A stretch of 64,000 nucleotides of DNA from Novosphingobium flavum (GTDB taxonomy: Bacteria > Pseudomonadota > Alphaproteobacteria > Sphingomonadales > Sphingomonadaceae). The notes beneath the pieces were generated by a model that saw nothing but the letters and a program-made list of their open reading frames with translations, was not told the origin of the DNA and did no database searches. The stretch covers positions 1 to 64,000 of the forward strand of contig NZ_JACLAW010000016.1 of the NCBI RefSeq assembly GCF_014230315.1, read 5' to 3'. Positions 3,980 to 20,871 of the stretch are shown here, in pieces. Made by a program: the position numbers and the translations under genes. The stretch's first letter is position 1; every line of letters begins with the position of its first letter.

Positions 3980-5293
3980 ATGCTCACGTCCCCCTTCAAG
4001 CAGGCCTGCGCGATCCCCTTCTATCCGCAGTACGGCCTGTTCAGCCTCACGGGCGGGTTTGTCCGGCAATGGGAATACAACGGTTGGAAGCGCGAGAGCC
4101 TGTCGTGGAAGAAGACCTGCTACATCCACGCGGGCCTGTCCGGTATGGGCCAGATCACCTATCGCGGCCGCGATGCGGAAGCCTTTCTCGCCCGGACCTT
4201 CGTCAACAACTTCAGCAAGTTTCGCGTCGGCACGGCCAAACATGCCATCGCCTGCGACGATCGCGGTTTGATCGCCGGCCACGGCGTGCTGCAGAAGCGG
4301 GGTGAGGAGGAATTCCGTCTCTATGTCGCCGGGCCTTGGACGCCCTATGCGTTCAGCCGCTTTTCCGGGGATGTCGAGCAGGCGGTGGGCGACGACTTCC
4401 TGTTCCAGATTGCCGGACCGACCTCGCTGGAAACGCTGGAGGCTGCGACCGGGGAGAGCCTGCGCGACATTGCCTTCCTGCGCTATCGGCAGGTCACCAT
4501 CTGCGGTCACGAGATCCAGATCATGCGTCTCGGCATGGCCGGTACGCTGGCCTTCGAACTGCACGGCTCCTTGGCGCATGGACCCGAGATCTATGACGCG
4601 ATCCTGCGCGCCGGGGTTCCTTTCGGGATCGAGCCGCTCGGCTGGCAGACCTTCCAGGTCAACCATGTCGAGGGCGGATTTCCGCAGCAGTTCTGGACCT
4701 TCCAGTCCGCGATGCACGACGATCCCGGCTTTCGCGGATGGATGGCGCAGCAGCCTTGGCACTTCCCCGATCCGGCGCCCGCCGGCAGTGTCGATCCGGC
4801 CGACTTTCGCGCCCGCTGCCGCACTCCTGTCGAGGTCGGCTGGGAGCGTTCGGTTCGGCTTGACCACGATTTTACCGGCCGCGCTGCGGTCGAGGCGGAA
4901 CTGGCCGCGCCGCGGCGGACCGTCGTCACCCTTGAATGGAATGCGGAGGATGTCATCGACATCTATGCCTCGCTGCTGCGCGAAGGCGAGGAATACAAAT
5001 ATCTCGAAATTCCGGTTTCGCCTGCCAATCGGGGAATTTGTGGCCACGCAGATCATGTGATGAAAGATGGTGTGCCGGTCGGCATCTCCTCCGGCACGGT
5101 GTACAGCTATCATTTCCGCAAGGTGATCTCGCACTGTACCATTGATGGGGCTGAAGCGAATGAGGGGGCCGAGGTGGTCATCCTGTGGGGCGACCATGGT
5201 GGGCGACTGAAGGAAGTACGCGCGACCGTCGCCCGGTTCCCATATCTTTGCGAAGGTCGTAATCAGTCGGTCGATCTCACGCGGGTTCCTTAA
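3980..5293 (+). CDS. GcvT-fold aminomethyltransferase family protein, LigM/DesA-like O-demethylase candidate
   Basis: 437 residues, with a GCV_T tetrahydrofolate-binding fold (about 40-290) and a C-terminal barrel domain (about 330-430). The N-terminal stretch WEYNGWKRESLSWKKTCYIH resembles the aminomethyltransferase-like proteins of sphingomonads, which include the THF-dependent vanillate/syringate O-demethylases LigM and DesA (about 470 aa). Such enzymes move a methyl group from an aryl methoxy group to THF. No other glycine-cleavage genes (gcvH, gcvP) are near, which argues against T-protein itself. It lies 85 bp behind the TonB-dependent receptor on the same strand. Family confidence is good; the O-demethylase function is inference. 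Confidence 0.7.
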   Translation: MLTSPFKQACAIPFYPQYGLFSLTGGFVRQWEYNGWKRESLSWKKTCYIHAGLSGMGQITYRGRDAEAFLARTFVNNFSKFRVGTAKHAIACDDRGLIAGHGVLQKRGEEEFRLYVAGPWTPYAFSRFSGDVEQAVGDDFLFQIAGPTSLETLEAATGESLRDIAFLRYRQVTICGHEIQIMRLGMAGTLAFELHGSLAHGPEIYDAILRAGVPFGIEPLGWQTFQVNHVEGGFPQQFWTFQSAMHDDPGFRGWMAQQPWHFPDPAPAGSVDPADFRARCRTPVEVGWERSVRLDHDFTGRAAVEAELAAPRRTVVTLEWNAEDVIDIYASLLREGEEYKYLEIPVSPANRGICGHADHVMKDGVPVGISSGTVYSYHFRKVISHCTIDGAEANEGAEVVILWGDHGGRLKEVRATVARFPYLCEGRNQSVDLTRVP

Positions 5294-5299
5294 GGGCCA

Positions 5300-5509
5300 T
5301 CAATCGCCGTCCAGCAAAGCCCCAGCGGTCACCCCAAGTGGCTCCGCAAGCTTCTCCACGACAGTAATTGTCGGATTCCTCCGTCCTCGCTCGATGTCAC
5401 TGACATAGGTGCGGTGGATGCCGGCGCGGTCGGCGTAGTCTTCCTGGCTCCAGCCTTTGGCCTCGCGCAGGGCGCGTACATTCCGGCCGAGGCGTATCCG
5501 AATATCCAC
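5300..5509 (-). CDS. Small XRE/Cro-type HTH regulator
   Basis: A 69-residue protein that is almost entirely a lambda-repressor-type HTH (RVALREAKGW-like helix 1, then WSQEDYADRAGIHRTYVSDI recognition region, then ERGRRNPTITVVEKLAEPLG). Stand-alone XRE proteins of this size are common as regulators of mobile elements and restriction-modification systems. It ends 7 bp from the end of the convergent O-demethylase-like gene. Upstream, the divergent 120-bp region to the secreted protein gene carries GTCTACAGAC-type palindromes and a 12-bp inverted repeat that could be its operators. It marks the left edge of the terminase-bearing island. Confidence 0.85.
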   Translation of the reverse strand: MDIRIRLGRNVRALREAKGWSQEDYADRAGIHRTYVSDIERGRRNPTITVVEKLAEPLGVTAGALLDGD

Positions 5510-5513
5510 GGCC

Positions 5514-5611
5514 GTCTACAGACAGCCATGTCGCTCATCGATCTACAGACGATCAGTGACATTTGACGTTGACTTGCCCCGCAAACGAAGCCTGATGGGT
5601 GTCACTGATCG
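5514..5611. promoter_or_regulatory. Divergent control region with repeated palindromes
   Basis: Three sequence elements lie between the XRE gene and the secreted-protein gene. GTCTACAGAC at 5514-5523 (arms GTCT/AGAC) is nearly repeated as ATCTACAGAC at 5541-5550. A 12-bp perfect inverted repeat follows, CGATCAGTGACA at 5550-5561 and TGTCACTGATCG at 5600-5611, with a 38-bp spacer holding a TTGACG hexamer at about 5563. The placement fits autoregulation by the XRE protein; this is inferred from position only. Confidence 0.45.
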
Positions 5612-5629
5612 ACGACATTGGGGCGCGGC

Positions 5630-6262
5630 ATGGATGTGCGGATTTGTTGGATGGCGGCAGCGGCTGGGCTGCTGGCAAGCGGGGTAGCGGCCCAGTCCAA
5701 AGAGGAACGGATCGAGCCGAGCCCGGCCCAGTTGGCCAAGCTCAATGCCCTGACCCCGGAAGGCGTCGCGGCGTTGGTGACGGTGAAGGGCGACGAACTC
5801 GAACCGGTGACGGTGCTGACCACGGCCGAGGCGTGGAAGAGCAAGGGCGCCTTTACCGATCCGGTCCGCTCGGACGCGATGCTCCGGGCTTTTATCAGCA
5901 CCAGGACCGGCGAGGTGCGCTGGCAGGTCTACGAGGAGGTCTCGTACAACTATGCCTACCGCATGTTCCGGCAGGCGGTCTATGCGACGGCGGCGGGGGC
6001 GCAGTCGGCTGCGGTGACCGAACTCGCCCACGAGGTGCTGGGCTGCTTCGGCGGGACCTGCTCCTACCGCGACACGCTCGGGTTCGACCTTCCCGAGGCG
6101 GCGGTCCGCGAGATTGCCGCGCAGTACCACCCCGGCGGCTCACCCTTGTGGCGGTTCCGCTTCAAGGCGCAAAGCGGGCTCGACTGGGAAGACCGGATTG
6201 CGCCGGCCGAGGCGGCCGGGCTGCTGCTCGCGGTCGAGCACAGGACGAGCAAACGGCCGTGA
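5630..6262 (+). CDS. Secreted protein of unknown function
   Basis: 210 residues. I chose the ATG at 5630 because it opens directly into a signal peptide (MDVRICWMAAAAGLLASGVA, cleavage likely after AA before QSKEE); a TTG four codons upstream is possible. The mature part has no motif I recognise. It contains a Cys pair in CFGGTCSY (about residue 143) that could form a disulfide, and a KPV-less mixed alpha/beta composition. It overlaps the next gene by 4 bp (GTGA), so the two are probably translated together, although a periplasmic protein and a GIY-YIG nuclease are an odd couple. Function unknown. Confidence 0.7.
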   Translation: MDVRICWMAAAAGLLASGVAAQSKEERIEPSPAQLAKLNALTPEGVAALVTVKGDELEPVTVLTTAEAWKSKGAFTDPVRSDAMLRAFISTRTGEVRWQVYEEVSYNYAYRMFRQAVYATAAGAQSAAVTELAHEVLGCFGGTCSYRDTLGFDLPEAAVREIAAQYHPGGSPLWRFRFKAQSGLDWEDRIAPAEAAGLLLAVEHRTSKRP

Positions 6263-7146
6263 GCGTGTTGCCGGCCAACCTTGATTTCCGGGGAATGCTG
6301 GACCTCGCCAGCCTCGACCCGCGTGAGGTGGTAGCCGTGCGCCATGCCCCGCAGCAGAAGGCCCTGCGCCGCGTGCTGCCCTGGCTGGTGGTCGAGCGCC
6401 CCGAACTGTTCATGGCCTGGCAGCAGATCCAGTGGGAGAAACTGGAAAAGGCCCTGATGCGGGCCCGCTACATGGCCTCGTTCGTGGGGCAGGACAGCGG
6501 CATGGCAACCTTTGCCGGGATCAGCCGGATCACCGGCTGGCAGAGCCTCGATCATGCGGCCTATCTCGACTTTCCCGGCAACCGCGAACTGGCCGACCTC
6601 GGCATGGACCTGCGCGGGCCAGACATGGAACACTGCCTCGCCTTCGAGCTGGAGGAGACCGGTTGCTTTGCCGATTACGTCGGTCGGCTGGTGGTGAACT
6701 GGCCGACGCCCTCGCGTCAGTGGTGGCGCTGGGCTGGCAATGCCTCGTTCCCGGTCAGCGCAATCGATCCGGACAGCCGGTTCGTCCGCGCGATGCCGGA
6801 ATGGAGTGATCTGATCCTGAGCTGGTACGAGTTGCAGAGCCTGCCTGCGTCGTGGATCAGCGCGCTGGCGCAGTGGCGCGGGGTTTACCTGATCCACGAT
6901 GTCGAGAGGCGGGCGGGCTATGTCGGCTCGGCCTATGGCGAGGACAATATCCTCGGCCGCTGGCGGGGTTATGCCCGTACCGGCCACGGCGGCAATGTCG
7001 CTCTGCGCCAGAGCAATCCTGCAAACCTGCGCTTCTCCATCCTCCAGCGCACCTCGCCCGATCTTGAGCCAGCCGATGTCATCGCGCTGGAAGCCAGCTG
7101 GAAGAACCGCCTGCACACCCGCGAGGCCGGGCTCAACCGCAACTGA
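6259..7146 (+). CDS. GIY-YIG nuclease-domain protein
   Basis: 295 residues from a GTG start that overlaps the preceding stop by 4 bp. The C-terminal part, from about residue 208, reads GVYLIHDVERRAGYVGSAYG, which holds the GIY and YIG core motifs (here GVY and YVG). A GRWRGYARTGHGG segment with the conserved Arg and a Glu near the end (ALEASWKNRL) completes a short GIY-YIG domain. The first 200 residues are unfamiliar. The gene is convergent with terL, 4 bp apart. Nucleases of this family act as homing endonucleases, restriction enzymes or repair enzymes; in this setting a phage- or defence-linked role is plausible but not shown. Confidence 0.75.
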   Translation: MSVLPANLDFRGMLDLASLDPREVVAVRHAPQQKALRRVLPWLVVERPELFMAWQQIQWEKLEKALMRARYMASFVGQDSGMATFAGISRITGWQSLDHAAYLDFPGNRELADLGMDLRGPDMEHCLAFELEETGCFADYVGRLVVNWPTPSRQWWRWAGNASFPVSAIDPDSRFVRAMPEWSDLILSWYELQSLPASWISALAQWRGVYLIHDVERRAGYVGSAYGEDNILGRWRGYARTGHGGNVALRQSNPANLRFSILQRTSPDLEPADVIALEASWKNRLHTREAGLNRN

Positions 7147-7150
7147 AGGG

Positions 7151-8716
7151 TCAGTACAGACCAGGATCGTCGTCCTCGTTGACGTTGTACCAGGCCTCGT
7201 CGTCCTCCTCGTCCCGCTCATCGCCGTAGTAGCGGAAGCCGTAGCCGATGCCGATCTCTTCCGGCGCGGCGGGTGGGCTGTTCCACCAGGCGCCGTGCTG
7301 GCGCACCCAGCCGAGCAACTGCGACAGGGCATCGACCTGATCGTCATGGCGCCCGTTGGGGAAGGCGCTCACCTCGCGGATGAACTCGGCCAGCCACGGC
7401 GCATCTTCGGGCACATGGACCCGGCCGGCCTCGATCATCGCGCTGACCCCGAGCGCGCGGCTCTGCTTGTCGGTCTCGGGCCGCCGCCCGACGGGGGAAG
7501 GCACGCCCGGCGGATCGTCGTGCCTCAGGTTCTGGATCAGCTGGGTGCCCGAGGCCTGGTCCTCGATCAGCAGGACATCGGCGCGATGTTCGCGGGCCAG
7601 GCTGATCGCGGTGCGGGTGAGATCGGGCAGTTGCAGCCGGCCCCGGAACAGGTCGAGGATGTAGACGTCGTTGCCGCGGACCAGCGCGGTCACGCAGACC
7701 GACCAGTCGTTGTGGGGGTTGTCCTTGCTTGCCGTATCCCACGACTGGATCACGGTCCCGGGAAAGCGGGCAAAGCCAGCGGTAGCAAACGTCCTGAACC
7801 ACTCGCCCCGGATCACATTGCCGAGCGCGGGCACCGGGTCCTGCTGGTACTGTGCGGCAAAGGCATAGGAGCCCATGGCCGCCTTCAGCTCCATCAGGAC
7901 CGGCAGCGGCTCGCGCGCGGGGTGGAGCAGTTCACCCGCCTTGCGGCGATGGACCCGCCTGCGGGTAAGCGGGATCGTCATGTCTACCTCGGCGATGGCC
8001 GCCAGCGTGAGGTGCTCCCACCCGCCGCTCTCGAGCAGCATCCCGGCCAGGTCATCCTCGTGCAGGCGCTGCATCACGCAGAGCATGGTCCCGCGGCTCT
8101 TGTCGTCGAGCCGGGAGGACAGGGTCGAGCGGAACCAGCCGTTGACGAAGGTGCGGGTGGTCTCCGAGTTCGCCTCCTCGGGCTTGATCACGTCGTCCAT
8201 GATGATGATGTCGCCGCCGCGCCCGGTCAGGGTGCCCCCGACCGAGGTCGAGAGCCGGCCGCCGCGCCGGGTGGTCTCGAAGTCATAGTTGGCCGAGCGC
8301 TTTTGCGCGATGACGGTGCCGGGAAAGGCTTCGCGGTACCAGGCAGACTGCATGACCGAGAGGCAATCGCGCGCCAGCTTGCCCGACAGTTCGTTGGAAT
8401 AGCTGACACAGACGAAGTTGAGGGCCGGGTTCTTGCCCAGCATCCAGGCCACCCAGGCGACGCTGATCGCGATCGACTTGCCGTTGCGCGGGGGCAGGGT
8501 GATGAGCAGGCGGCGGTTGTCGCCGGCCCGGACGCGATCGAGCTGGTGCACGATCGCGTCAAAGTGCCAGTTCCAGACCATGACCTCGCCGCCGTTCACG
8601 AAGGCGAAGGCCTTGCGCAGGAAGTAGGCAAAGTCGTGGACCAGCAGCCAGTTGTGGACCGCGACCGGATCGCTGAACCGGTCCGCCAGCCCGGGAGGCA
8701 GGCCCCGCTCTATCAT
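7151..8716 (-). CDS. terL: Phage terminase large subunit (DNA-packaging ATPase/nuclease)
   Basis: A 521-residue, full-length terminase. The ATPase half has a Walker-A-like PPRNGKS (75-81), Walker B with catalytic acid IIIMDDV (170-176), and a coupling segment near 210. The nuclease half is RNase-H-like, with its acidic residues in QSWDTAS (D327), LIEDQASGT (E385/D386) and DDQVDAL (458-464). It therefore looks intact, not decayed. The very C-terminus is acidic (DERDEEDDEAWYNVNEDDD). It belongs to the family with the psiM2-type C-terminal domain. It overlaps the DUF5681 gene by 4 bp and is last in a leftward operon behind it and the methyltransferase. No portal or capsid gene follows, which is unusual for terL. 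Confidence 0.93.
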   Translation of the reverse strand: MIERGLPPGLADRFSDPVAVHNWLLVHDFAYFLRKAFAFVNGGEVMVWNWHFDAIVHQLDRVRAGDNRRLLITLPPRNGKSIAISVAWVAWMLGKNPALNFVCVSYSNELSGKLARDCLSVMQSAWYREAFPGTVIAQKRSANYDFETTRRGGRLSTSVGGTLTGRGGDIIIMDDVIKPEEANSETTRTFVNGWFRSTLSSRLDDKSRGTMLCVMQRLHEDDLAGMLLESGGWEHLTLAAIAEVDMTIPLTRRRVHRRKAGELLHPAREPLPVLMELKAAMGSYAFAAQYQQDPVPALGNVIRGEWFRTFATAGFARFPGTVIQSWDTASKDNPHNDWSVCVTALVRGNDVYILDLFRGRLQLPDLTRTAISLAREHRADVLLIEDQASGTQLIQNLRHDDPPGVPSPVGRRPETDKQSRALGVSAMIEAGRVHVPEDAPWLAEFIREVSAFPNGRHDDQVDALSQLLGWVRQHGAWWNSPPAAPEEIGIGYGFRYYGDERDEEDDEAWYNVNEDDDPGLY

Positions 8717-9228
8717 GCGGGCCCCTCCGGTTCGTCGGGACCGGGTGCGAGCGGCAAGTCGTGGTCGCTCGGGTCATCCCGCAGATGTCCGGCCATGGCG
8801 GCGTCAGCAGCCGTGGCGGCGGCTTCGACAGGCAACTCGCCGATGCCGGCGAGAAAGCCCTCCAGCATGGCAAGTTCTGCGGGTGGCAAGGTGTTCTTAT
8901 CCCCGCCGCGGTCCTCGGTCCCGAATACCTGCATGATCAGCGGCAGCAGCAGCGCCTGGGCCTTGAGGTCACCGGTGGCGGCGCGAGCGCTGAGGGTGAC
9001 CAGGGCAAGCTGCTGGCGGGTACCCTTCAGGGTCTTGCCGTTGATCTGGATGGTGTGCCGGGCCGAGAGCACCTCGTGTAGATCGGTCTTCAACCCGCGG
9101 CTGCCGCGCGGACGTCCCTTGGGATTGCCCGACTGGCCGGGCTTGAACCGGCTGTGCTTCGGCGGCCGGCCATAGCCGACGAGGTCGTCGTCCGAGGGCT
9201 CGCCGGGGATATCGTCGATTTTGCTCAT
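8713..9228 (-). CDS. DUF5681 domain protein, possible small-terminase-like partner
   Basis: 171 residues. The N-terminal SRFKPGQSGNPKGRPRGSRG (about 26-45) is the DUF5681 signature, a basic Gly/Pro-rich segment found in proteins encoded just before terL in many proteobacterial prophages. A helical middle (residues 45-110) and an Ala/Asp-rich acidic tail follow. By position (between methyltransferase and terL, 4-bp overlap with terL) it may serve as the DNA-recognition or small terminase subunit; that is inference, as the family is not biochemically described to my knowledge. Confidence 0.82.
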   Translation of the reverse strand: MSKIDDIPGEPSDDDLVGYGRPPKHSRFKPGQSGNPKGRPRGSRGLKTDLHEVLSARHTIQINGKTLKGTRQQLALVTLSARAATGDLKAQALLLPLIMQVFGTEDRGGDKNTLPPAELAMLEGFLAGIGELPVEAAATAADAAMAGHLRDDPSDHDLPLAPGPDEPEGPA

Positions 9229-9230
9229 GG

Positions 9231-10544
9231 TCAGTTCTCCTCGACCAGGCCGGCGTGCTCGGCCGCGACCTCGGCAAAGGTCTGACCGGTGGCGGCAAGC
9301 ACCGGGACAAGACCGCTGGCATCGGCCAGACGGGCGAGGGCGGTATCGACATAGCGTGGGTCGAGCTCGATCCCGGCGCCGCGCCGGCCCGTGCGGTGGG
9401 CGGCGATCAGGGTCGAGCCCGAGCCGGCACAGGGATCGAGCGCGATCTCGCCGCGGTTCGAGCAGTCGATCAGGAAGTCGGCGATCAGCGCGGTCGGCTT
9501 GACCGTGCTGTGATCAGCCAGGTCACGCTTGCGGCCCTTGCGGAAGGTGTTCGCGCCGGCATACTTCACGACATTGGTGCGGTAGCGGCCGGTGTCGCCG
9601 AGGCCGAAGTTGTTGGTATGCCTGCCGCGGCCCGACTTGAACACGAAGATCAGCTCGTACTGGCTGCGATAGAAGCTGCCCATGCCGCCGGTGCCCTTGT
9701 CCCAGACCACCAGTTGCTTGTGCTCGGAATAGACCCCGTCGGCCGCATCGAGCAGTTCGCGCGCGTGACGCCAGTCCATCGCGATGTAGTGGATCGAGGC
9801 TTCGGCCGAAAACCGTGCGCACTGGCGGAAGATCGCGCGCAGGAAAGTGGTGAACTCAGCCACGCTCATCTCGCCGGTGCCCATCACGAACTCGCGGTGG
9901 CGGCCGGTGCCCGAGACGAACCCGTCGATCGGCACGTTGTAGGGTGGGTCCGCAAAGACGATTCCCGCCCGGTCTTCGCCGAGCAGGGCTTCGTAGCTCG
10001 CCGCATCGCGCGCGTCGCCGCAGTAGAGCCGGTGCGGGCCGATCAGCCACAGGTCACCCTCGCGGCTGACCGCAACCGCGTCCTCATCCGGCAGTTCGAC
10101 CTTCTCCGGTTTCTCCTCGACCTTGTCCTCCGGCAGCGCGAAGTCGAGGTCGGCGGTCGTGAAGCCGGTGATCTCGAGATCATAGCCGTCGGCGAACAGG
10201 ATCTCGAGCTCTTCGGTGAGCAGCTTGGCATCGTAGCCGGCCAGTTCGCCGAGACGGTTCTCGGCAAGGGCAAAGGCGCGGCGGTCGTGGTCGGTCATGA
10301 ACCGCGCGCGGATCACCGGGACCTCGTCGAGGCCGAGCGCCTTGGCCGCCAGCCAGCGGCCATGCCCGGCCGCGATCATGTTGGCATCGTCGATCACGAT
10401 CGGCACCAGCCAGCCAAACTTCCGAATGGACGCCCCGATCTGGCTGATCTGCTTGTCGGAGTGGGTCCGCGCATTGCGCGGGTTGGGCGTGAGCGAACTG
10501 GTCGCGACCAGCTCGAGATGCGGGTGGTTGGGGATGTGGGTCAT
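9231..10544 (-). CDS. ParB-like domain fused to site-specific DNA methyltransferase
   Basis: 437 residues (ATG at 10544; a TTG one codon upstream is in frame) preceded by a GAGGAG ribosome-binding site. Residues 1-105 form a ParB/Srx-like domain (NPRNARTHSD, then NMIAAGHGRWLAAKALGLDE). The methyltransferase follows, with motif IV DPPY at 199-202 (FADPPYN) and the AdoMet-binding motif I as DPCAGSGST at 370-378. This order (DPPY before motif I) is the beta class, as in CcrM-type N6-adenine or N4-cytosine enzymes. No cognate restriction gene is adjacent, so it is an orphan methyltransferase by position. It is 2 bp from the DUF5681 gene. Target sequence unknown. Confidence 0.9.
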   Translation of the reverse strand: MTHIPNHPHLELVATSSLTPNPRNARTHSDKQISQIGASIRKFGWLVPIVIDDANMIAAGHGRWLAAKALGLDEVPVIRARFMTDHDRRAFALAENRLGELAGYDAKLLTEELEILFADGYDLEITGFTTADLDFALPEDKVEEKPEKVELPDEDAVAVSREGDLWLIGPHRLYCGDARDAASYEALLGEDRAGIVFADPPYNVPIDGFVSGTGRHREFVMGTGEMSVAEFTTFLRAIFRQCARFSAEASIHYIAMDWRHARELLDAADGVYSEHKQLVVWDKGTGGMGSFYRSQYELIFVFKSGRGRHTNNFGLGDTGRYRTNVVKYAGANTFRKGRKRDLADHSTVKPTALIADFLIDCSNRGEIALDPCAGSGSTLIAAHRTGRRGAGIELDPRYVDTALARLADASGLVPVLAATGQTFAEVAAEHAGLVEEN

Positions 10545-10584
10545 CAACTGCTCCTCAAAAAGGAAGCAGTTCAGCTACACCACG

Positions 10585-11205
10585 TCAGCGCCGCTTTGAC
10601 TCACGAAAGCGGGTCCGATTTTTCCCTGATACCAGATTGCGGATTGTCGCCGGGGAAGGGCTGTAGCCTAAAAGCCAACGCACCGTGTTAGCCGTTGTCG
10701 CGAGCGCTCGTTCGCTTGGCGTGCTGCCAGGAGCGACTGAGATTGTCCCGATGATCGGGTGTTCGATCGATTGACTGTTGTGCTCTCGGATCAGTGGGTA
10801 AAGGTCGTCATAGATCCCACGAATGGCGTTGTTCCGCTTGAGCTTCGCGATGCGGTTGTGACAGCGAAGGCTGCGCTGAAATTCGGACAGTCTGGGCACC
10901 TTGCCTTCGAGCCGGGCAACGAGCCATTCAAGATATTTCGCCGGCAGGTTGGGGCGGTGCAGCTTCCGCAGCCTGTGCGCCAACAATACGTTTCTGGGCA
11001 CATTGCGGCGCGGCCGTCCCTTGCGCTGTGCTTGATGTCCAAGCTCCGTTCGGAGCAAGCGCATCATCATGGCCGGCATCAGTGCAGGCGTTACCCGTTC
11101 GGCGGCCTCCAGCAGCATCTCGTCCGTGGGGCATTGGCCCTCCTCGAGGTGCGAGACGACCGTGTCTGTAGTAATAACGGAGATGTTGGAGAAATCGAAT
11201 TTCAC
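10585..11205 (-). CDS. Unknown protein of the island
   Basis: 206 residues, rich in Arg/Leu/Asn, with lower G+C coding than the neighbours. No family recognised. The middle (residues 60-100: RKGRPRRNVPRNVLLAHRLR) is strongly basic and could bind nucleic acid. The C-terminal part (WLLGYSPSPATIRNLVSGK) looks helix-turn-helix-like, with ATIRNLVSGKNR a possible recognition helix. It is the first gene of the leftward run into the methyltransferase, DUF5681 and terL, 40 bp upstream of the methyltransferase start. The 413-bp noncoding stretch upstream carries repeated TTTCCCTG boxes. A regulator or packaging-site binder is a guess only. Confidence 0.6.
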   Translation of the reverse strand: MKFDFSNISVITTDTVVSHLEEGQCPTDEMLLEAAERVTPALMPAMMMRLLRTELGHQAQRKGRPRRNVPRNVLLAHRLRKLHRPNLPAKYLEWLVARLEGKVPRLSEFQRSLRCHNRIAKLKRNNAIRGIYDDLYPLIREHNSQSIEHPIIGTISVAPGSTPSERALATTANTVRWLLGYSPSPATIRNLVSGKNRTRFRESKRR

Positions 11206-11590
11206 GGGAAATGAATGCCTCTGATCCGGCTCGCCTGCAACACGCAGATTTCACTCCGCCGTTCCCAGCATGGCCGGATTTTTTCCCTGTTCGTTCACCA
11301 GGGAAATGCCGGCGGAAGTGGCCGAATTCTGCGAGTGTGATCGAAGAAATTTCTTCCTTTTGGGCGCTTCGTTTCAACAATTCCCTGTAGATTCCCAGTT
11401 AAGTAGGGAAACGGGGCGGCGAGACCCGTTAGGCCCCGACTGCGTCATTCACCATATTTCCCTGAAGATCGCCGGTTTCTCCGATCGTCGCCCTCGCAGG
11501 CGCGGGGTTTCGGTCGCCTTGCGCGGCTGGATCAGGATCTTGTCGGAGGATGGCTTGAGAGAGGGGGGCTTGCTACCTTGGCCCTGACCG
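11206..11590. repeat. A+T-richer noncoding stretch with TTTCCCTG boxes
   Basis: No coding capacity I can support. It holds TTTCCCTG at 11282-11289, its reverse complement CAGGGAAA at 11299-11306 (together an 8-bp perfect inverted repeat with 9-bp spacer), TTCCCTG at 11381-11387 facing TAGGGAAA at 11404-11411, and TTTCCCTG at 11457-11464. A further TTTCCCTG occurs at 10621-10628, inside the 3' end of the unknown ORF. Placement upstream of the island's leftward operon suggests operator sites, packaging (pac/cos) recognition sites or replication iterons. Confidence 0.6.
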
Positions 11591-11615
11591 CTTGAATTTC
11601 GTCGATGAATTCAAG
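11591..11615 (-). terminator. Hairpin just past the tRNA-Leu(GAG) 3' end
   Basis: Inverted repeat CTTGAATT (11591-11598) and AATTCAAG (11608-11615) with a 9-nt loop, starting 3 bp beyond the CCA end of the leftward tRNA. It is probably the 3' processing or termination structure of the tRNA transcript. There is no clear T-run, so termination strength is uncertain. Confidence 0.45.
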
Positions 11616-11618
11616 GGA

Positions 11619-11705
11619 TGGTGCGGTCGAGAAGACTCGAACTTCCACGGGCTTTCGCCCACAACGACCTCAACGTTGCGCGTCTACCAATTCCGCCACG
11701 ACCGC
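11619..11705 (-). tRNA. tRNA-Leu (anticodon GAG)
   Basis: Read on the minus strand it begins GCGGTCGTGGCGGAATTGG, has the D-loop TTGGTAGACGC, an anticodon stem CAACG/CGTTG enclosing TTGAGGT (anticodon GAG), a long variable arm (TGGGCGAAAGCCCG) as expected for a class II Leu tRNA, the T-loop GTTCGAGTC, and an encoded CCA. Its 3' end faces the terminase island, which makes it a plausible integration site. Confidence 0.96.
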
Positions 11706-11836
11706 ATAATCGAACAGGGCCACTTCTAGGAGAAGAAGCTGGCCCCGCGGGGTAGGAGCGCGCCCCTAGCAAATGGTCCGGGGGGCTGCAAGCGATGATA
11801 TGCGCTTTTTGCGAAGGCTTTTTTCAACAGGGCCTC

Positions 11837-12634
11837 TCAGCCCGGTTTCCAGCCGATTTCGGCGAACTTGGCCGAGCGCGGCACATCGGTCACGGCTTCG
11901 TTGATCGTCATGCTCTCGCCCGGGGCGAGCTGGCGCTTGGGTGGGAAGACCTCCCACGAATAGACGATGCGGTCGGCCGAATCGCGCAGCACGATCAGGA
12001 TCGGCGGGACATTGCGGCGTTCCTTGCCGACATTGGTGACCTTGCCGCTTGCCCCGAAGAATTCAGCGCCGTTGGGCAGCGTGCGCCGGTCCTGCCGGTT
12101 GGGCGGGAATTCGAGCACGAGATCGGGCTGGGCCGAGGCGAAGGTCTGGCGCGCAAGCGGCGCCCAGTCGGGCAGCCCGTACCAGGCGACCGCGCCGATC
12201 GCGGCGAAGGCGATCACGGCAAAGACCGAGGCGGCGATGGTGTAGAGTTTGAGCCGGTTGCGCCGCGGCCGGAACGGCGGCTCGTGCGCGAAGCTCGAAT
12301 AGGAGAAGTCTTCCGCTGTCGTCTCGTCGGAATAGACCTGCTGGATGCGCGGTTCTTCGGGAATCGGCGGGGGGGGCTCGGCCTCCGTACCGGAAGGAAC
12401 CGCCTCGCTCGCCGCATCCGCTTCCGGAGCGGCAGCCTGTGCGGCCGGCTCAGCCGAGGCCTGGGCAGGCGGCGGCGCGGCAACCGGCACGGGTTCGGGG
12501 CGCTGTGGCAGCTCCGGGCCATGTTGAAACCACGAATGGCGACACTTCGCGCAGCGCACCGTGCGCCCATCTACGCCGATGGCGCTGTCGGGAACCACGT
12601 AGCGGGTCGCGCAGGCAGGGCAGGCGATGATCAT
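11837..12634 (-). CDS. Zinc-ribbon (MJ0042-type) membrane protein
   Basis: 265 residues. The N-terminus has the CPACATRYVVPDSAIG...VRCAKCRHSW zinc ribbon (Cys pairs at about 5/8 and 28/31), the MJ0042-family signature. A long Pro/Ala/Glu linker (45-115) follows, then one transmembrane helix (about 136-155, IAASVFAVIAFAAIGAVAWY), and a C-terminal periplasmic beta domain of the DUF3426 type with TNVGKERRNVPPI. The role is unknown. It is divergent from ftsE, with about 190 bp between, a conserved arrangement in sphingomonads. Confidence 0.82.
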   Translation of the reverse strand: MIIACPACATRYVVPDSAIGVDGRTVRCAKCRHSWFQHGPELPQRPEPVPVAAPPPAQASAEPAAQAAAPEADAASEAVPSGTEAEPPPPIPEEPRIQQVYSDETTAEDFSYSSFAHEPPFRPRRNRLKLYTIAASVFAVIAFAAIGAVAWYGLPDWAPLARQTFASAQPDLVLEFPPNRQDRRTLPNGAEFFGASGKVTNVGKERRNVPPILIVLRDSADRIVYSWEVFPPKRQLAPGESMTINEAVTDVPRSAKFAEIGWKPG

Positions 12635-12828
12635 GGATGGGGATTAAGCACGTGCGCTTGCCGCCCGACAAGGCCGCGGCCGGAATGCACTCCGGTTGCG
12701 CCCCTTTTTTCCACACCGATTGATGGCTATAGGCCACAAGGGGTAGCCGCCGGTCGGTTCGGGAGCCATTGTTTCGCCGTGTTCGCAACTTTTCGCCGTG
12801 ATCGACGCTGCCTGACTCGGCCTGCCGC

Positions 12829-13557
12829 ATGACGCCGGACGCCGAAGGCGAGATCGTCCAGTTCGACAATGTCGGCCTGCGCTACGGCACGGGGCGCGAG
12901 GTGCTGAGCGACGTTTCCTTCACCCTTTATCCTGGCAGCTTCTATTTCCTCACCGGGGCCAGCGGCGCGGGCAAGACCAGCCTGCTCAAGCTGCTTTACC
13001 TCGCGCAGCGGCCTTCGCGCGGGGCGATCCACATGTTCGGGACAGATGCGATCACCATGCCGCGCGAGCGCCTGCCGCTGCTGCGCCGCCGCCTCGGGGT
13101 CGTGTTCCAGGACTTCCGGCTGGTTCCCCACCTTTCCGCCTTCGACAATGTCGCCCTGCCGCTGCGCGTTTCTGGCGCGGCCGAGCGGGACATTGTCCAG
13201 CCCGTGGCCGACATGCTCGAATGGGTGGGCCTGGCCGACCGGATGGACGCGCGCCCGGCTACGCTGTCGGGCGGGGAGCAGCAGCGCGTGGCCATCGCCC
13301 GCGCGGTGATCGGCCGGCCGCAGTTGCTGGTGGCCGACGAGCCGACCGGCAACGTCGATCCCGACATGGCGGTCAAACTGCTGCGCCTGTTCGAGGCGCT
13401 CAACCGCCTCGGCACCACGGTCGTCGTGGCGACTCACGATGCCCACCTGCTGCGCAAGGTGCCGGAAAGCCTGATCATGCGGCTCGACAAGGGCCGCCTC
13501 TCCGATCCTACCGGGGCCCTGCGCTATCCGCCCCGGCGTCAGACGGGGCCGGCATGA
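12829..13557 (+). CDS. ftsE: Cell-division ABC transporter ATP-binding protein FtsE
   Basis: 242-residue ABC ATPase. Walker A is GASGAGKT (43-50), Q-loop [11 protein letters not shown], signature [14 protein letters not shown], Walker [13 protein letters not shown], and the switch His in VATHD. The FDNVGLRYG start and [18 protein letters not shown] are FtsE-typical. With FtsX it forms an inner-membrane complex that activates peptidoglycan hydrolases at the septum. The stop overlaps the ftsX start (ATGA). Confidence 0.95.
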
Positions 13558-14501
13558 ACGACGCGCCGCCGATTCCGCAGGCCGCCTCTCGCCTGCCGCG
13601 CCGCTCTGCCGAGATCGTGCCGCAGGCACGAATGTCGGGCCCGATACCGTGGGTGATCGCCATCATGGTCGCGCTGATGGTGGTTGCCGCCGCGGGTGGC
13701 CTCGCCCTGCGCAACACCGGCAAGGCGGCGGCGCGCGAGCTTTCCGGCGGGATTACGGTCCAGATCGTCGAGGCGCGCCCGGCCGAGCGCGACCGGCAGG
13801 CCCGCGCCGCCCTGGCCCTGCTCCAGCGCGCGCAGGGGGTGACCGAGCCGCGAATCGTGCCGCAGGCCGAGCTGGACGCGCTGGTCGAGCCGTGGCTGGG
13901 CGAGGCGGTGGACGAGCAGGCGCAGGGCGGCGGGCAGGGGGACAGCCTCGGCGTTCCCGTCCCGGCCCTGATCGATGCGCGGCTGGCCGGATCGCTCGCG
14001 CCCGCGCGCCTCGCGGCCTTGCAGGAGCAGCTCCGCCGCACCGCGCCCTCCGCCCGGGTCGATGATCAGGCGATCTGGCTGCGCCCGGTGTTCGGGGCCG
14101 CGCAGTCGCTGCAGTGGCTGGCCGTGGCGTTGATCGTGCTGCTTTCGGGCGCCACCGGCGCGGCCGTGCTGCTGGCGGCGCGAACCGCGCTCGGCAACAA
14201 CCGCGAGACGATCGAGATCGTCCACCTGCTCGGCGGCACCGATGCGCAGATCGCGGCGATTTTCCAGCGCTCGATCGCATTCGATGCGATCGGCGGCGGC
14301 GTGGTCGGTTTCGGCGCCGCCTTCGTCGTGATTGCCCTGCTCGGGCGCAGCTTTGCCCAGCTTCAGGCCGGGATCGTCACCGGCTCGGCGCTCGGCTGGA
14401 TGGATTGGGCCCTGCTCGCGCTGGTCCCGGCCGTGGCCGCAGTGGTGGCAACGATCACCGCGCGCTGGACAGTGATGCGCGCGCTGCGCCGGATGCTATA
14501 G
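13554..14501 (+). CDS. ftsX: Cell-division permease FtsX
   Basis: 315 residues from the ATG at 13554, overlapping ftsE by 4 bp. It has the four-helix FtsX topology: a cytoplasmic N-tail, TM1 near residues 35-52 (WVIAIMVALMVVAAAGGLAL), a periplasmic loop of about 130 residues (the ECD that contacts hydrolase activators), then three TM helices around 185, 240 and 290. EIVHLLGGTDAQIAAIFQ between TM2 and TM3 is the conserved coupling segment. It is the partner of FtsE. The sequence of the periplasmic loop is low in conservation, as usual. Confidence 0.92.
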   Translation: MNDAPPIPQAASRLPRRSAEIVPQARMSGPIPWVIAIMVALMVVAAAGGLALRNTGKAAARELSGGITVQIVEARPAERDRQARAALALLQRAQGVTEPRIVPQAELDALVEPWLGEAVDEQAQGGGQGDSLGVPVPALIDARLAGSLAPARLAALQEQLRRTAPSARVDDQAIWLRPVFGAAQSLQWLAVALIVLLSGATGAAVLLAARTALGNNRETIEIVHLLGGTDAQIAAIFQRSIAFDAIGGGVVGFGAAFVVIALLGRSFAQLQAGIVTGSALGWMDWALLALVPAVAAVVATITARWTVMRALRRML

Positions 14502-14509
14502 GTTCCCAT

Positions 14510-15040
14510 ATGATCCGCCGTATTTGCTCTTCGCTTCTCCTCCTGTGGATGCTCGGCTTCCTCTGGTTCGCCGTGTTCCTGCCGCGCCCAGCCGGCGGGG
14601 AAAAGACCGACGCCGTGGTCGTGCTGACCGGCTCGGGCGGGCGGATCGACCGCGGGCTGGAAGTGCTTTCGAGCAAGCTGGCCCCGCGCATGCTGGTCTC
14701 GGGCGTGGACCGCGAGGTGACCGCGCGCCAGTTCGCCGCGCAGTACCATATCCCCCGCGCCCGCATGTCCTGCTGCATCACGCTCGGCTACGAATCGGTC
14801 GACACCCGCTCCAATGCGCGCGAAGCGGCGCAGTGGATTGCGAAGAACGGCTTCACCTCGGTCCGTCTGGTGACGAGCGACTGGCACATCCGCCGCGCCG
14901 CCTTCGACCTGTCGCAGGTCGCGCCGCCGGGCCTCACCGTGGTCGAGGACGCGGTCTCGACCCGGCCCAGCTTCAAGGTGCTGTTCCTTGAATACCACAA
15001 GCTGCTGGCGCGGCTGGTGCAGCGGGTGACCGGCTCGTGA
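14510..15040 (+). CDS. YdcF-family (DUF218) membrane-anchored protein
   Basis: 176 residues with a single N-terminal TM helix (about 5-24, ICSSLLLLWMLGFLWFAVFL). The DUF218 fold begins at DAVVVLTGSGGRIDRGLEVL, followed by MLVSGVD, then TRSNAREAAQW and LVTSDWHIRRAAF. These are the conserved motifs of the YdcF/ElyC/SanA group, implicated in envelope and polyprenyl-phosphate metabolism. It sits 8 bp behind ftsX and overlaps plsC (GTGA), so it belongs to an envelope operon. The exact reaction is unknown. Confidence 0.88.
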   Translation: MIRRICSSLLLLWMLGFLWFAVFLPRPAGGEKTDAVVVLTGSGGRIDRGLEVLSSKLAPRMLVSGVDREVTARQFAAQYHIPRARMSCCITLGYESVDTRSNAREAAQWIAKNGFTSVRLVTSDWHIRRAAFDLSQVAPPGLTVVEDAVSTRPSFKVLFLEYHKLLARLVQRVTGS

Positions 15041-15777
15041 CCGCGTCCCCGCTCGCGCCAGAGCTTGCTCAGCCGCTTCCCCCGGCCGGCCCGGCCGACG
15101 TGCTGCGCAGCCTCGCCTTCTACTTGATTTATTATGGCGCGACCGTGCTGCTCGCCTTCGTGGTGACCTTTCGCCTGATCATGCCGGGCCGCGGCTTCGT
15201 TCACACGGTCCACACCTGGGTCCGGTTCCATCGCTGGTGCGTCGAGCATATCCTGCGGATCGAGGTCAGGATCGAAGGACAGGTGCCGGTCGCCCCGGTG
15301 CTGGTGGCGATGAAGCACGAGAGCTATTTCGAAGCGATCGACATGCCGGTCCTGCTCTCCTATCCGGCGGTTTTCGCCAAGATCGAGCTGCTGCACATGC
15401 CGCTGTGGGGCCGCGCCGGGCGGCACTACGGCCTGATCGGGGTCGAGCGCGATCAGGGGGCCAAGGCCCTGCGCACGATGATCAGCGAGGCGAAGAAGCG
15501 TGTTGCCGAGGGGCGCCCGCTGGCGATCTTTCCCGAAGGCACCCGCGTGCAGCACGGCACCCGCCCGCCGCTCCAGGCGGGGTTCGCCGGGATCTACAAG
15601 CTGATCGGCGTGCCGGTCGTGCCGATCGCGATCGACAGCGGCGCGCGCTACAAGCGGCGCTGGAAAAAGCCGGGGCGGATCACCATCCGGATCGGCGAGA
15701 CCATCCCGCCCGGTCTCCCGCGCGAGGAGATCGAGGCGCGCGTCCACGCCGCGATCAACGTGCTGAATCCTGCATGA
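15037..15777 (+). CDS. plsC: 1-acyl-sn-glycerol-3-phosphate acyltransferase (PlsC family)
   Basis: 246 residues from a GTG start. One TM helix occurs near 27-50 (SLAFYLIYYGATVLLAFVVT). It transfers an acyl chain to lysophosphatidate in phospholipid synthesis. Block I reads KHESYFEAIDM, so the catalytic His is followed four residues later by Glu, not the usual Asp (HX4D), a conservative change. Block III is FPEGTRVQHG. Block IV is IGVPVVPIAID. It is in an operon with ftsE, ftsX and ydcF. Confidence 0.9.
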   Translation: MTASPLAPELAQPLPPAGPADVLRSLAFYLIYYGATVLLAFVVTFRLIMPGRGFVHTVHTWVRFHRWCVEHILRIEVRIEGQVPVAPVLVAMKHESYFEAIDMPVLLSYPAVFAKIELLHMPLWGRAGRHYGLIGVERDQGAKALRTMISEAKKRVAEGRPLAIFPEGTRVQHGTRPPLQAGFAGIYKLIGVPVVPIAIDSGARYKRRWKKPGRITIRIGETIPPGLPREEIEARVHAAINVLNPA

Positions 15778-15787
15778 CCGTGCCGGC

Positions 15788-17047
15788 ATGAGCGAGCCGG
15801 AGCGCAAGCGCCGCTGGTACGAGGTGCTGGGGCCGGGGCTGGTGACCGGCGCGGCCGACGACGATCCCTCCGGCGTCGGCACGTACAGCCAGGTCGGCGC
15901 GCAGTTCGGCTATTCGCTTGGCTGGACCCTGTTCTTCGGCTTTCCGCTGCTCGCCTCGATCCAGGCGGTCTGCGCCCAGATCGGCGCAGTGACCGGCAAG
16001 GGGATCGCCCGCAATCTCAGGCAGCACTATCCCCGCTCGCTCCTGCGCGTGACGGTCCTGCTCCTGCTGGTCGCCAATGTGGTCAACATAGGCGCCGATC
16101 TTGGCGCTATGGCCGCCTCGGTCGCCCTGCTGCTGCCGGGCAATGCGATGGCCTGGGTCGTGGGCTTCGGGGTGGTCTCGGTCGTGCTCGAGGTCTGGCT
16201 GAGCTACGAGCGCTATGCCGCTGTTCTGAAATGGACCACGCTCTCGCTGTTCGCCTATGTCGCGGTGGCCTTCGTCGCCCATGTCCCGGTGCTGGAGGCG
16301 CTGCGCGGCCTCACCGTGCCCTCCTTCAGCTTCGGCAAGGAACAGGCCATGGCGCTCGTCGCCGTGTTCGGCACCACGATCAGTCCCTACCTGTTCTTCT
16401 GGCAGGCTGGGCAGGAAGTGGAGGAACAGCACCGCCGCCACGTCAAGCCGCTGATGGTCAGCCCCCGGCAGTTCGTCGGTGAGGAATTGGCGCGGATCCG
16501 GCTCGATACGCTGGTTGGCATGGGCTTTTCCCACATCACCGCGATCTTCATCGTCGTGGCCACGGCGGCGACGCTCCACGCGCACGGCATCCGCGAAATC
16601 GCCAGCGCCGCCCAGGCTGCCGAGGCCCTGCGCCCGATCGCGGGCGACCTTGCCTTCGCTCTCTTCGCGCTGGGGATTGTCGGCACCGGCCTGCTCGCCG
16701 TGCCGATCCTCGCGGGCTCCGCCGCCTATGCGGTCAGCGAGACGTTCGACTGGGTCGAAGGTCTCGACCGCAAGCCGCGCGAGGCCAAGGCCTTCTACGC
16801 GATCATTGCCCTGGCCACGGCGGGCGGCATGGCGCTCAACCTGCTGGCGATCGACCCGATGCAGGCGCTCTATTGGGCCGCCGTGGTCAACGGTCTGCTC
16901 GCCCCGCCGCTGATGGTGGTGACCATGCTGATCTCGCGCAATCCCAGGGTCATGCACAAGCATGTCATTTCGCCGTGGCTGGCCTTCGGCGGCTGGGTCT
17001 CGACCGCGGTGATGACTGCGGTCGCGGCGGTGTTCCTGCTGAGTTAG
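15788..17047 (+). CDS. NRAMP-family divalent-metal transporter, non-canonical motifs
   Basis: 419 residues with about 11 TM helices. The N-terminal ADDDPSGVGTYSQVGAQFGY matches the NRAMP TM1, but the metal-binding DPGN reads DPSG (26-29). The TM6 A/M-P-H motif reads GTTISPY (195-201), so the Met and His ligands are absent. These are typical of a divergent NRAMP-like clade found in many proteobacteria whose substrate is not settled; Mn2+/Fe2+ import should not be assumed. It starts 10 bp after plsC and ends overlapping the convergent tyrA by 4 bp. Confidence 0.85.
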   Translation: MSEPERKRRWYEVLGPGLVTGAADDDPSGVGTYSQVGAQFGYSLGWTLFFGFPLLASIQAVCAQIGAVTGKGIARNLRQHYPRSLLRVTVLLLLVANVVNIGADLGAMAASVALLLPGNAMAWVVGFGVVSVVLEVWLSYERYAAVLKWTTLSLFAYVAVAFVAHVPVLEALRGLTVPSFSFGKEQAMALVAVFGTTISPYLFFWQAGQEVEEQHRRHVKPLMVSPRQFVGEELARIRLDTLVGMGFSHITAIFIVVATAATLHAHGIREIASAAQAAEALRPIAGDLAFALFALGIVGTGLLAVPILAGSAAYAVSETFDWVEGLDRKPREAKAFYAIIALATAGGMALNLLAIDPMQALYWAAVVNGLLAPPLMVVTMLISRNPRVMHKHVISPWLAFGGWVSTAVMTAVAAVFLLS

Positions 17048-17961
17048 CCCTGACCGTTATGGTCGGACCGCCCGAAGTCGGGCCGCGCGTCGTCCTGGCC
17101 CTGTTCGATGATCGAGCGGCGGATCGCGCGGGTGCGGGTGAAGTGATCGAACAACCTGTCGCCCTCGCCGTTGCGGATCGAGCGCTGCAGGGCGGTCAGG
17201 TCCTCGGTGAAGCGCTGGAGGATTTCCAGCACGGCATCGCGGTTGGACAGGAACACGTCGCGCCACATCGTCGGGTCGGAAGCGGCGATGCGGGTAAAGT
17301 CGCGGAAGCCGCCCGCCGAATACTTGATCACCTCGCTCTGGGTCACTTCCTCGAGGTCCGAGGCCGTGCCGACGATGGTATAGGCGATGAGGTGCGGCAC
17401 ATGGCTGGTGACTGCGAGCACCAGATCGTGATGCTGCGGGTTCATCAGCTCGACATGGGCGCCGAGCCCTTCCCAGAACTGGACCAGCTTGGTCAGCAGG
17501 ATCGGATTGGCATCGTCCGGCGGGGTGACGATGCACCAGCGCCGCCCGAACAGGCTGGCAAAGCCCGCGTCCGGGCCGGAGTTTTCCGTGCCCGCAACCG
17601 GGTGGGCCGGGATGATCGCCACGCCGGGCAGGGCCTCGGACAGCGAGGACAGCACGGTCTGCTTGGACGAGCCGACGTCGCTCACCAGCACGCCCGGCTT
17701 GAGGTGGCCCGCCACTTCGCGCGCTGCGGCGCCCATCGCGCCGACCGGCACGCAGAACACCACGAGGTCGGCCCCCGCCACGGCCTCGGCCGCCGTCTCG
17801 CACACCTGCGCCACCAGTCCGCGCGCCCGTGCCCGCTCGCGCGTCGCCGGGTCGGCGTCATAGCCGGTGGTGTGCACACCGGGCAGATACTCCTGCACGG
17901 CCAGCCCGGTCGATCCGCCCAGCAGCCCCAGCCCGATGATCGCGACCGCTCCGAACATCAC
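17044..17961 (-). CDS. tyrA: Prephenate/arogenate dehydrogenase
   Basis: 305-residue NAD(P)-dependent oxidoreductase of tyrosine biosynthesis. N-terminal Rossmann motif [15 protein letters not shown] (about 7-21) with an acidic residue following (GYDADP), then [11 protein letters not shown] and [19 protein letters not shown] (the TyrA substrate-binding His region), and the C-terminal helical PDH domain. Whether it uses prephenate or arogenate cannot be told here. It overlaps hisC by 4 bp; hisC-tyrA pairing is common in alphaproteobacteria, where the HisC enzyme may also transaminate aromatic precursors. Confidence 0.93.
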
Positions 17962-19055: not shown

Positions 19056-19143
19056 GACGGCTGGCCCTTAGCAGGCTTGCGCGCGTTTGACAGCCTCGCT
19101 TGCATTGACACCGTGCCTGCGGTCCCCCAATTCGCTTGCCATT

Positions 19144-20265: not shown

Positions 20266-20849
20266 ACGCGCTGCGCCCGGATCTCGCGATCATCGCGGAC
20301 AATGTGTCGCCCAGCGCCAGCGTGCTAGACGTCGGCTGCGGCGATGGCGCGCTGCTCTCGGCCCTGCGCGAAAAGGGCTGCGATGCGCGCGGGATGGAGC
20401 TTGATCCCCACAACGTCGCCGAATGCGTGGCGCGCGGGCTCTCGGTCATCCAGGGCGATGCCGACAAGGATCTCGTCTTCTACCCCGACAAGGCGTTCGA
20501 CTGCGCGATCCTCAGCCAGACCCTGCAGACCACGATGCGCCCCGACAAGGTGCTCGACGAACTGCTCCGGATCGGGCGCAAGGCGGTGGTCTCGTTCCCC
20601 AATTTCGCCCACTGGCGGGTGCGCCTCTCGCTGCTGTGGGGCGGCCGCATGCCGGTCACGCGCCTGCTGCCCGTGGCCTGGTACGAAACGCCCAACATCC
20701 ACCACCTGACGATCGACGATTTCCGCGCCCTGATGGCCGAACGCGGGATAAAGGTCGAACACGCCTGGTTCCTCAAGGGTGATCGCCAGACCAGCGCCAC
20801 GGCCGCCAACTTCCGCGCCGAACACGCCGTCTTCCTGATCTCGCGCTAA
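20262..20849 (+). CDS. metW: Methionine-biosynthesis methyltransferase-fold protein MetW
   Basis: 195 residues, SAM-methyltransferase fold with motif [16 protein letters not shown] (about 24-38) and [14 protein letters not shown] overlap with metX. It works with MetX in methionine biosynthesis; its exact chemistry is not clear from sequence. The frame stops just before a repeat-rich spacer. Confidence 0.92.
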
Positions 20850-20871
20850 GGCGCCCTCATCTCCCGCGCCT

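Follow-up and report, generated by a model that had tools for sequence, protein, structure and literature searches.

The 64,000-nt window of the Novosphingobium flavum genome analysed here (contig NZ_JACLAW010000016.1, positions 1 to 64,000) contains, beside a tRNA-Leu(gag) gene, a block of seven genes that includes a large terminase subunit (TerL), a DUF5681 protein and a DNA methyltransferase fused to a ParB domain. It is well supported, at high confidence, that a capsid-less terminase-methyltransferase element with a cis site of its own is widespread and that this block is a copy of it. In particular, the core of TerL, DUF5681 and ParB-methyltransferase is conserved and selected in distant bacteria without detected virion genes, and a non-coding site of ~190 bp marks the cassette and goes with the core in many loci. 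A fuller reading, to which we give as much credence as doubt, is that the block is a compact mobile element and that its terminase acts on DNA at the element's own site, probably to package it into another particle.

Distribution and conservation of the core cassette

A scan of genome contigs with a seven-row TerL alignment retrieved at least 80 loci, which are a sample and not a total, are counted as loci and not genomes (L074 and L083 come from one genome), and include several contigs that end early. Most belong to Alphaproteobacteria; others come from Ralstonia, Rudaea, Acidobacteria, Endomicrobium and one record titled Actinobacteria. The methyltransferase is present in 70 of these 80 loci and DUF5681 in 70, with both in 65. 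Adding four copies from the genome itself, one Sphingobium plasmid and 20 viral-collection contigs picked for carrying DUF5681 gives the set of 105 cassette loci used below. A serine recombinase is found in 36 of the 105 (18 of the 80 genome loci and 16 of the 20 viral contigs) and an XRE regulator in 14. Within the genus, TerL matches 8 of 59 genomes, the present one included, although two of these matches are fragments (G049, and G041 with a stop). Across the order, DUF5681 matches 53 of 197 genomes and none of 14 control genomes; DUF5681 alone need not mean a cassette, as it is present in two genomes that lack a TerL match (G024 and G030).

Several of these loci deserve separate description. 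The viral-collection contigs (among L107-L136) comprise at least 20 short contigs with DUF5681 beside TerL, 19 of them with the methyltransferase and 16 with a serine recombinase; they were perhaps filed as viral owing to the terminase. A check for circular contigs found an exact terminal repeat of 12-200 bases in none of the 20. L033 (3306-8172) is a cassette variant in which the stretch from the site to u206, the first gene of the run, contains RepB/ParB-like genes and a different serine recombinase. Further, the L074 and L083 cassette stretches, which are 97% identical over 3.3 kb and have different neighbour genes, may represent a recent duplication or movement.

A genome-wide TerL search finds four diverged copies of the methyltransferase-DUF5681-TerL cassette in the N. 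flavum genome: the window copy (C7) and copies designated C8, C2 and C12. The C8 copy adjoins an enolase gene and has the same seven-gene unit, with a TerL 75% identical to that of the window, and this recurrence at a second genome place indicates that the arrangement is more than chance. The C7 and C8 copies share ~75% DNA identity from window position 5302 (the XRE end) to 10650, with a gap. Their ratios of nonsynonymous to synonymous substitution rates (dN/dS) are 0.07 for XRE, 0.21 for u214 (the C8 stretch used extends past the gene's stop, and that codon was skipped), 0.23 for the methyltransferase, 0.29 for TerL, 0.32 for UzuA, 0.41 for u206 and 0.42 for DUF5681, indicating purifying selection and not decay. 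The C2 and C12 copies contain the methyltransferase, DUF5681, TerL and XRE, have different cargo between TerL and XRE, and lie some kb from a serine recombinase. The C2 serine recombinase matches seven genome places, four of them strongly, and none on the C7 or C8 contig; the window copy could therefore move only in trans, and movement in trans is conceivable. The XRE homologues at the other three cassettes are 85-94% identical, and the UzuA proteins of the window and C8 are 68% identical. The C8 copy also has, between its cis site and u206, a gene for an ImmA/IrrE-type peptidase (L005 8668-9477; PF06114, 1.6e-15).

TerL lineage and the missing virion genes

Proteins encoded behind phage TerLs provide a direct comparison. 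None of 105 cassette loci matches any of 91 such proteins (tblastn, 1e-4), whereas a protein from a different phage locus, less than 80% identical, matches 42 of 49 phage loci. The phage TerL loci were drawn from the same viral scan, and the negative result weighs most in the 67 of 105 cassette loci that have at least 3 kb behind TerL. The 91 proteins came from 49 loci with at least 1.5 kb behind TerL (up to two open reading frames (ORFs) of 130-900 aa each). For the corresponding cassette set of 114 genes, no more than two ORFs per locus were taken, 130-700 aa long and lying in the first 4.5 kb behind TerL, from 62 loci with at least 4 kb there and with L024 excluded. In PHROGs, the phage-side proteins are mostly portal and head proteins among the 25 of 112 families listed. 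No head protein appears behind the cassette TerLs among the 25 of 76 families listed, which are recombinases, other nucleic-acid enzymes and proteins of unknown function. Hidden Markov models (HMMs) built here for portal and capsid, from 11 and 7 sequences, were discarded as evidence; they matched none of the 105 cassette loci, but among 60 comparison loci they also recovered no more than 13 and 7, which is little beyond their own training sequences, and the tblastn and PHROGs comparisons were used instead.

The cassette TerLs also stand apart in sequence. The TerLs of matching isolated phages are all less than 60% identical, with 38.7% the best among 40 listed. A FastTree phylogeny of 161 TerLs has a bipartition (support 0.85) that groups 98 sequences, namely 88 of the 90 DUF5681-linked TerLs (L061 and L068 fall outside) and ten others, and includes no locus with a detected portal or capsid. 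Moreover, K80, D174, D175, D327, E385 and D459 are invariant in 100 of 100 cassette TerLs, and D462 in 99 of the 99 with a residue there; we take these to be the key functional residues from general knowledge of terminases. Internal stops occur in 2 of the 100.

An earlier reading of this DNA from the sequence alone had held that the block is not an ordinary prophage remnant, which the downstream-protein comparison and the conservation of TerL bear out. Neither relics of other phage genes nor degenerate frames, the marks of such a remnant, were found in these comparisons, and a prophage origin of this kind is unlikely.

The ~190-bp cis site

Within the 1.6 kb before the methyltransferase in 94 oriented loci, the top 8-mer (ACAGGGAA/TTCCCTGT) occurs 38 times, compared with 3.5 expected from the rest of the loci. 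It belongs to a composite site of ~190 bp that consists of a head (GCAGTC, then GAACC and GTCTC), the pair TTCCCTG-CAGGGAA ~22 bp apart, a variable spacer and a second pair ~17 bp apart. Read by eye from the alignment, the head appears to resemble a tRNA T-arm; against Rfam, the site has no match up to E 1.

A sequence-only model was built from 15 sites, with the window copy included and those of C8, C12 and C2 left out, and was searched against the 4.1-Mb genome. Its best four places are the four cassettes (E-values of 7e-24, 1.6e-12, 1.5e-6 and 3e-4), three of them untrained; after these, apart from the other strand of the C8 site, the next matches are partial and have E-values of 0.01 or worse. 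Across the oriented loci, a first HMM from 12 loci finds the site in 31 of 94 at 1e-4, 19 of these untrained, and a second HMM built from those 31 finds it in 38 of 94 at 0.01, with 36 of the 38 upstream of the methyltransferase on the same strand. Searches of reversed sequences with the site HMMs gave no matches.

The position of the site varies. It lies 2.8-4.8 kb from the methyltransferase in C8, L033, L058 and L136, and sits at the far end, behind a recombinase, in L065 and L100. Of the 59 genus genomes, 17 carry the site, including 7 of the 8 with a TerL match; the exception, G026, has a TerL locus of only 3 kb. Since the site can be several kb away, at the other end or without TerL, it is not just a promoter. 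Some sites lie beside cassette remains, for example methyltransferase pieces in L256, L261 and L267, a TerL piece in L263, and XRE with a protein like the C12 cargo in L269. The broken relatives in L256, L261, L263 and L267 look like broken cassettes, not phages. Eight further copies in genus genomes are apparently solitary and may be scars, targets or something else (L253, L254, L257-L260, L262 and L264); L264 comes from G055, a genome with a cassette at another place, and L262 from G049, where a TerL piece lies elsewhere.

Organization of the window copy

The coordinates of the window copy are collected in Table 1. On the minus strand, the tRNA-Leu(gag) gene is followed by a non-coding stretch, u206, the ParB-methyltransferase, DUF5681 and TerL; u214 and the GIY-YIG gene face them on the plus strand, convergent with TerL, and the minus-strand XRE gene is the outermost of the unit. 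All genes named in the sequence-only reading are present; it had missed one, u214. Its view of the terminase as intact also stands, as the motor and nuclease regions are present, the reading frame is unbroken and the key residues are conserved. It had further stated that the block has no capsid, portal, tail or integrase; in line with this, the families listed for the seven encoded proteins include no integrase and, beyond the terminase models that TerL itself matches, no structural family; XRE and the methyltransferase had more than 25 families each, and negatives here and below refer to the families listed.

Table 1. Features of the window copy of the cassette and its neighbourhood (window coordinates; E-values unless indicated).
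Feature	Position	Strand	Evidence
XRE regulator, 69 aa	5300..5509	-	PF01381 4.7e-20; PADLOC control protein 3.2e-21
Conserved intergenic stretch between XRE and cargo	5510..5629	.	DNA homology with C8, C12 and C2
u214, first cargo gene	5630..6262	+	No family in Pfam or PHROGs at E<=0.1; kept in C8
GIY-YIG protein of the UzuA family (Uzume defence), second cargo gene	6259..7146	+	PADLOC UzuA 5.5e-72
TerL, terminase large subunit, 521 aa	7151..8716	-	PF17289 3.2e-18; phrog_38 1e-104
DUF5681 protein, candidate small terminase subunit	8713..9228	-	PF18932 6.1e-20
ParB_N-N6/N4 DNA methyltransferase fusion	9231..10547	-	PF01555 4.1e-21; PF02195 7.2e-9; phrog_498 5e-107
u206, 206 aa, first gene of the run	10585..11205	-	Homologues at the same place in C8, L030 and L033
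Composite non-coding cis site, head toward tRNA	11259..11457	-	nhmmer 2.7e-30 (this copy is a training member); model R1 85.2 bits
tRNA-Leu(gag)	11619..11705	-	ARAGORN; Rfam RF00005 4.7e-9

The XRE protein resembles the control proteins of restriction-modification systems. DNA homology of 76-90% to C8, C12 and C2 covers the XRE gene and ~100 bp upstream (compared by eye over 5510..5629), and we infer a divergent promoter/operator in this stretch that would serve XRE and the cargo genes. The u214 protein gives weak NCBIfam and PADLOC matches (E 0.014 and 0.0059) and is putatively exported, judging by eye from its signal peptide; the GIY-YIG gene start overlaps the u214 end by 4 bp. Pfam gave no family for u206. 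Next to the block, a GCV_T-like gene (window 3980-5293) has its stop six bases from the XRE stop, with nearly no spacer.

Association with tRNA genes

Some cassette copies sit at tRNA 3' ends, and the link is weak. The search of 129 loci gave 59 sites, and a tRNA lies within 500 bp of six of them (three Ser, two Tyr and one Leu), each time with its 3' end toward the site; two pairs, L075/L082 and L065/L100, are perhaps not independent cases. The Ser, Leu and Tyr tRNAs are the three with a long variable arm. Because of this possible non-independence, and because 7 of the 15 other tRNAs in the surveyed loci are also Ser or Leu, the association is suggestive only. No tRNA was found near the C8 copy in the 19.7 kb examined. 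In L074 and L080, an apparent tyrosine-integrase gene stands where L075 has a tRNA-Ser, and the junction with the cassette is made by the 3' end of the tRNA-Ser. The left flank of L074 and L080 was considered as the cassette's own end and rejected; it reads as a tyrosine-integrase island between the tRNA-Ser and the cassette, with the integrase named by eye.

At the window's own tRNA, the location of the block at the 3' end of tRNA-Leu, as first described, is correct as a position; it is not a classical attachment-site duplication, as no repeat of the tRNA end bounds the block. The order tRNA, zinc-ribbon, FtsE is kept in 13 of 14 relatives fetched for this locus. None of the 14 shows the block (the tRNA is seen in 13, two of which have less than 1 kb beyond it). 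In the 11 relatives compared by genes, the 3' sides of the tRNA share no gene with each other or with the window, except for one LysR gene in L224 and the window. The proposed empty-site comparison thus names no clean empty site, since the 3' sides have no genes in common. A check on whether the gene set and the tRNA-Leu position are shared had also been proposed. The gene set recurs in the 65 loci with all three core genes; the position recurs in genome G004, with TerL not detected. The G004 element lies at tRNA-Leu(gag) in the opposite orientation to the block, with the FtsE match ~1.2 kb off, like that of the window, and contains the site, methyltransferase, DUF5681, XRE and a diverged serine recombinase.

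The cargo slot

The GIY-YIG protein is a full-length UzuA homologue (PADLOC match over residues 8-295 of 295); its PF01541 match is weak, with an E-value of 0.006 under the Pfam cut-off. The Uzume system is said to go back to Millman et al. 2022. The suggestion that the GIY-YIG nuclease and the modification enzyme form one defence unit is partly supported, by the match of the nuclease to a defence family but not by the pairing. UzuA occurs in only 3 of 105 cassette loci (C7, C8 and L081) and so looks like cargo and not a partner of the methyltransferase; the best reading is that it is cargo of the XRE-controlled slot that follows TerL. The C12 cargo resembles the PADLOC candidate PDC-S11 (1.1e-10).

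How the cassette may act

Packaging by another particle appears to be the most likely single reading of how the cassette acts. DUF5681, with or without the ParB domain, would recognise the cis site, and TerL would cut there and drive the element's DNA into the portal of a particle from another phage or a gene transfer agent (GTA). Methylation may mark or protect the element's DNA, the XRE-controlled slot beyond TerL would carry exchangeable cargo, and UzuA as cargo would pay the host by blocking phages.

Packaging-type genes and a conserved site are both present in the cassette, and the virion gene set is incomplete, as in a satellite, with no portal, capsid or other phage downstream protein found. 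The DUF5681 gene directly precedes TerL, the position of a small terminase subunit. In Leptospira phage LE3, a DUF5681-like protein lies directly before TerL and overlaps it, with a portal behind. This placement, shared with a phage that has a portal, favours a packaging-type role at the site with the particle supplied from elsewhere. The core of the AlphaFold2 model of DUF5681 is well predicted, with a predicted local distance difference test score of at least 90 for 58 of 171 residues. DUF5681 is also mentioned in PMC8954984.

Several observations weigh against packaging of a mobile element by a helper. The families listed for the window copy include no integrase or recombinase of its own and no replication gene (primase or replicase), both of which satellites would be expected to carry. 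No site is found at E 0.01 in 56 of the 94 oriented loci, of which 72 have more than 1.5 kb before the methyltransferase and many lack upstream sequence, and 10 of the 59 genus genomes have a site without a TerL match. Placement at tRNAs is limited by the 53 of 59 sites with no tRNA within 500 bp, by the Ser and Leu background noted above, and by the missing direct repeat. The DUF5681 model has no match in the PDB at E<=0.001, and the structure search returned one viral small terminase at E 0.08. No helper is known; the genome's sole matches to portal PF04860 and HK97 capsid PF05065 lie on another contig, C21, in a GTA-like cluster with its own terminase. That cluster (C21 ~10000-20900, L189) contains terminase, portal, prohead protease, capsid and tail genes and, read from its gene order, appears to resemble RcGTA. 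No higher density of defence genes beside TerL is indicated; at 1e-5, PADLOC gives 20 families from 114 genes near TerL compared with 192 from 114 genes more than 7 kb away, counting families and not genes, and no defence-cargo rule is claimed. Finally, TerL needs a portal, and one TerL lineage spread over several phyla fits poorly with the portals of many unrelated helpers, so that a capsid-independent or a defence role keeps substantial weight.

The better placed of these two roles, though improbable as a full account, is a chromosomal defence or restriction-like trio in which the methyltransferase marks self, DUF5681 recognises the site and TerL destroys unmarked DNA, with UzuA and XRE as a second defence unit. 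A standalone three-gene cassette under purifying selection with invariant TerL key residues is consistent with it, as are the control-protein-like XRE, UzuA and the PDC-S11-like cargo alongside. The separate cis site, the nearby serine recombinases and the tRNA placement are instead features of mobile elements; moreover, there is no sign of defence genes being denser beside TerL than farther off, and neither TerL nor DUF5681 has a PADLOC match at E<=0.1.

Ranking next, and also doubtful, is capsid-independent processing, in which the small and large terminase subunits cut the composite site and help the element to excise, replicate or insert, with or without a serine recombinase. Consistent with this, the TerL clade stands apart from portal-bearing phages, its nuclease domain is RNase H-like (PF17289), the cis site travels with the cassette, and C7 and C8 occupy different places with no C2-kind serine recombinase on either contig. 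The C7 and C8 copies are, however, too diverged at their level of DNA identity to show recent movement, the element has no defined right end and no target duplication, and we know of no precedent for such processing. The last alternative, a decayed prophage whose terminase-methyltransferase end was kept by chance, has the phage-like DUF5681-TerL order of LE3, the broken relatives beside sites (L256, L261, L263 and L267) and the two TerLs with internal stops in its favour, but is very improbable, since these genes occur in 105 loci with no virion gene detected, the TerLs form one clade, key residues are invariant and selection is purifying.

Comparison with known systems and implications

Phage satellites (P4-like elements, phage-inducible chromosomal islands (PICI) and capsid-forming PICI) are among the closest known systems. 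The block resembles them in being small and tRNA-linked, with packaging-type genes, a repressor-like regulator, defence cargo and an incomplete virion set. Unlike them, it combines a terminase pair with no capsid, portal or replication gene, has a ParB-methyltransferase and a ~190-bp site, has no integrase in this copy (a large serine recombinase often lies near other copies) and has no known helper. Like an RcGTA-like GTA, the cassette would be a chromosomal terminase serving DNA transfer; in contrast to a GTA, it has no particle gene, and the GTA-like cluster, which is located elsewhere, has a separate terminase as well as portal, capsid and tail genes. Both the satellite and the DNA-transfer idea of the sequence-only reading are candidate interpretations. 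The full-length UzuA homologue is shared with Uzume, but in the block UzuA is paired with the putatively exported u214 and a divergent XRE. As in type II restriction-modification, a methyltransferase, a control-like XRE and a GIY-YIG gene lie within 6 kb; here, however, TerL and DUF5681 are kept with the methyltransferase and UzuA is not. A literature search found, among the titles and abstracts listed, none describing a capsid-less terminase-methyltransferase element (subscription papers and most preprints lay outside the search).

Such loci are easily mistaken for prophage debris, and the viral collection holds the contigs described above with DUF5681 beside TerL. If the cassette is a satellite, it keeps only a motor and perhaps a packaging site, which would be an extreme of helper dependence; otherwise, a viral motor has acquired a new function. 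Both readings are directly testable, as this one genome offers four natural copies together with a defined cis site and invariant active-site residues. A broader proposal, which we offer tentatively and consider less probable than not, is that a terminase lineage left the phages and became the engine of a separate class of mobile elements, in which TerL, DUF5681 and the ParB-methyltransferase would act on a ~190-bp site without a capsid, moving or policing DNA in several phyla.

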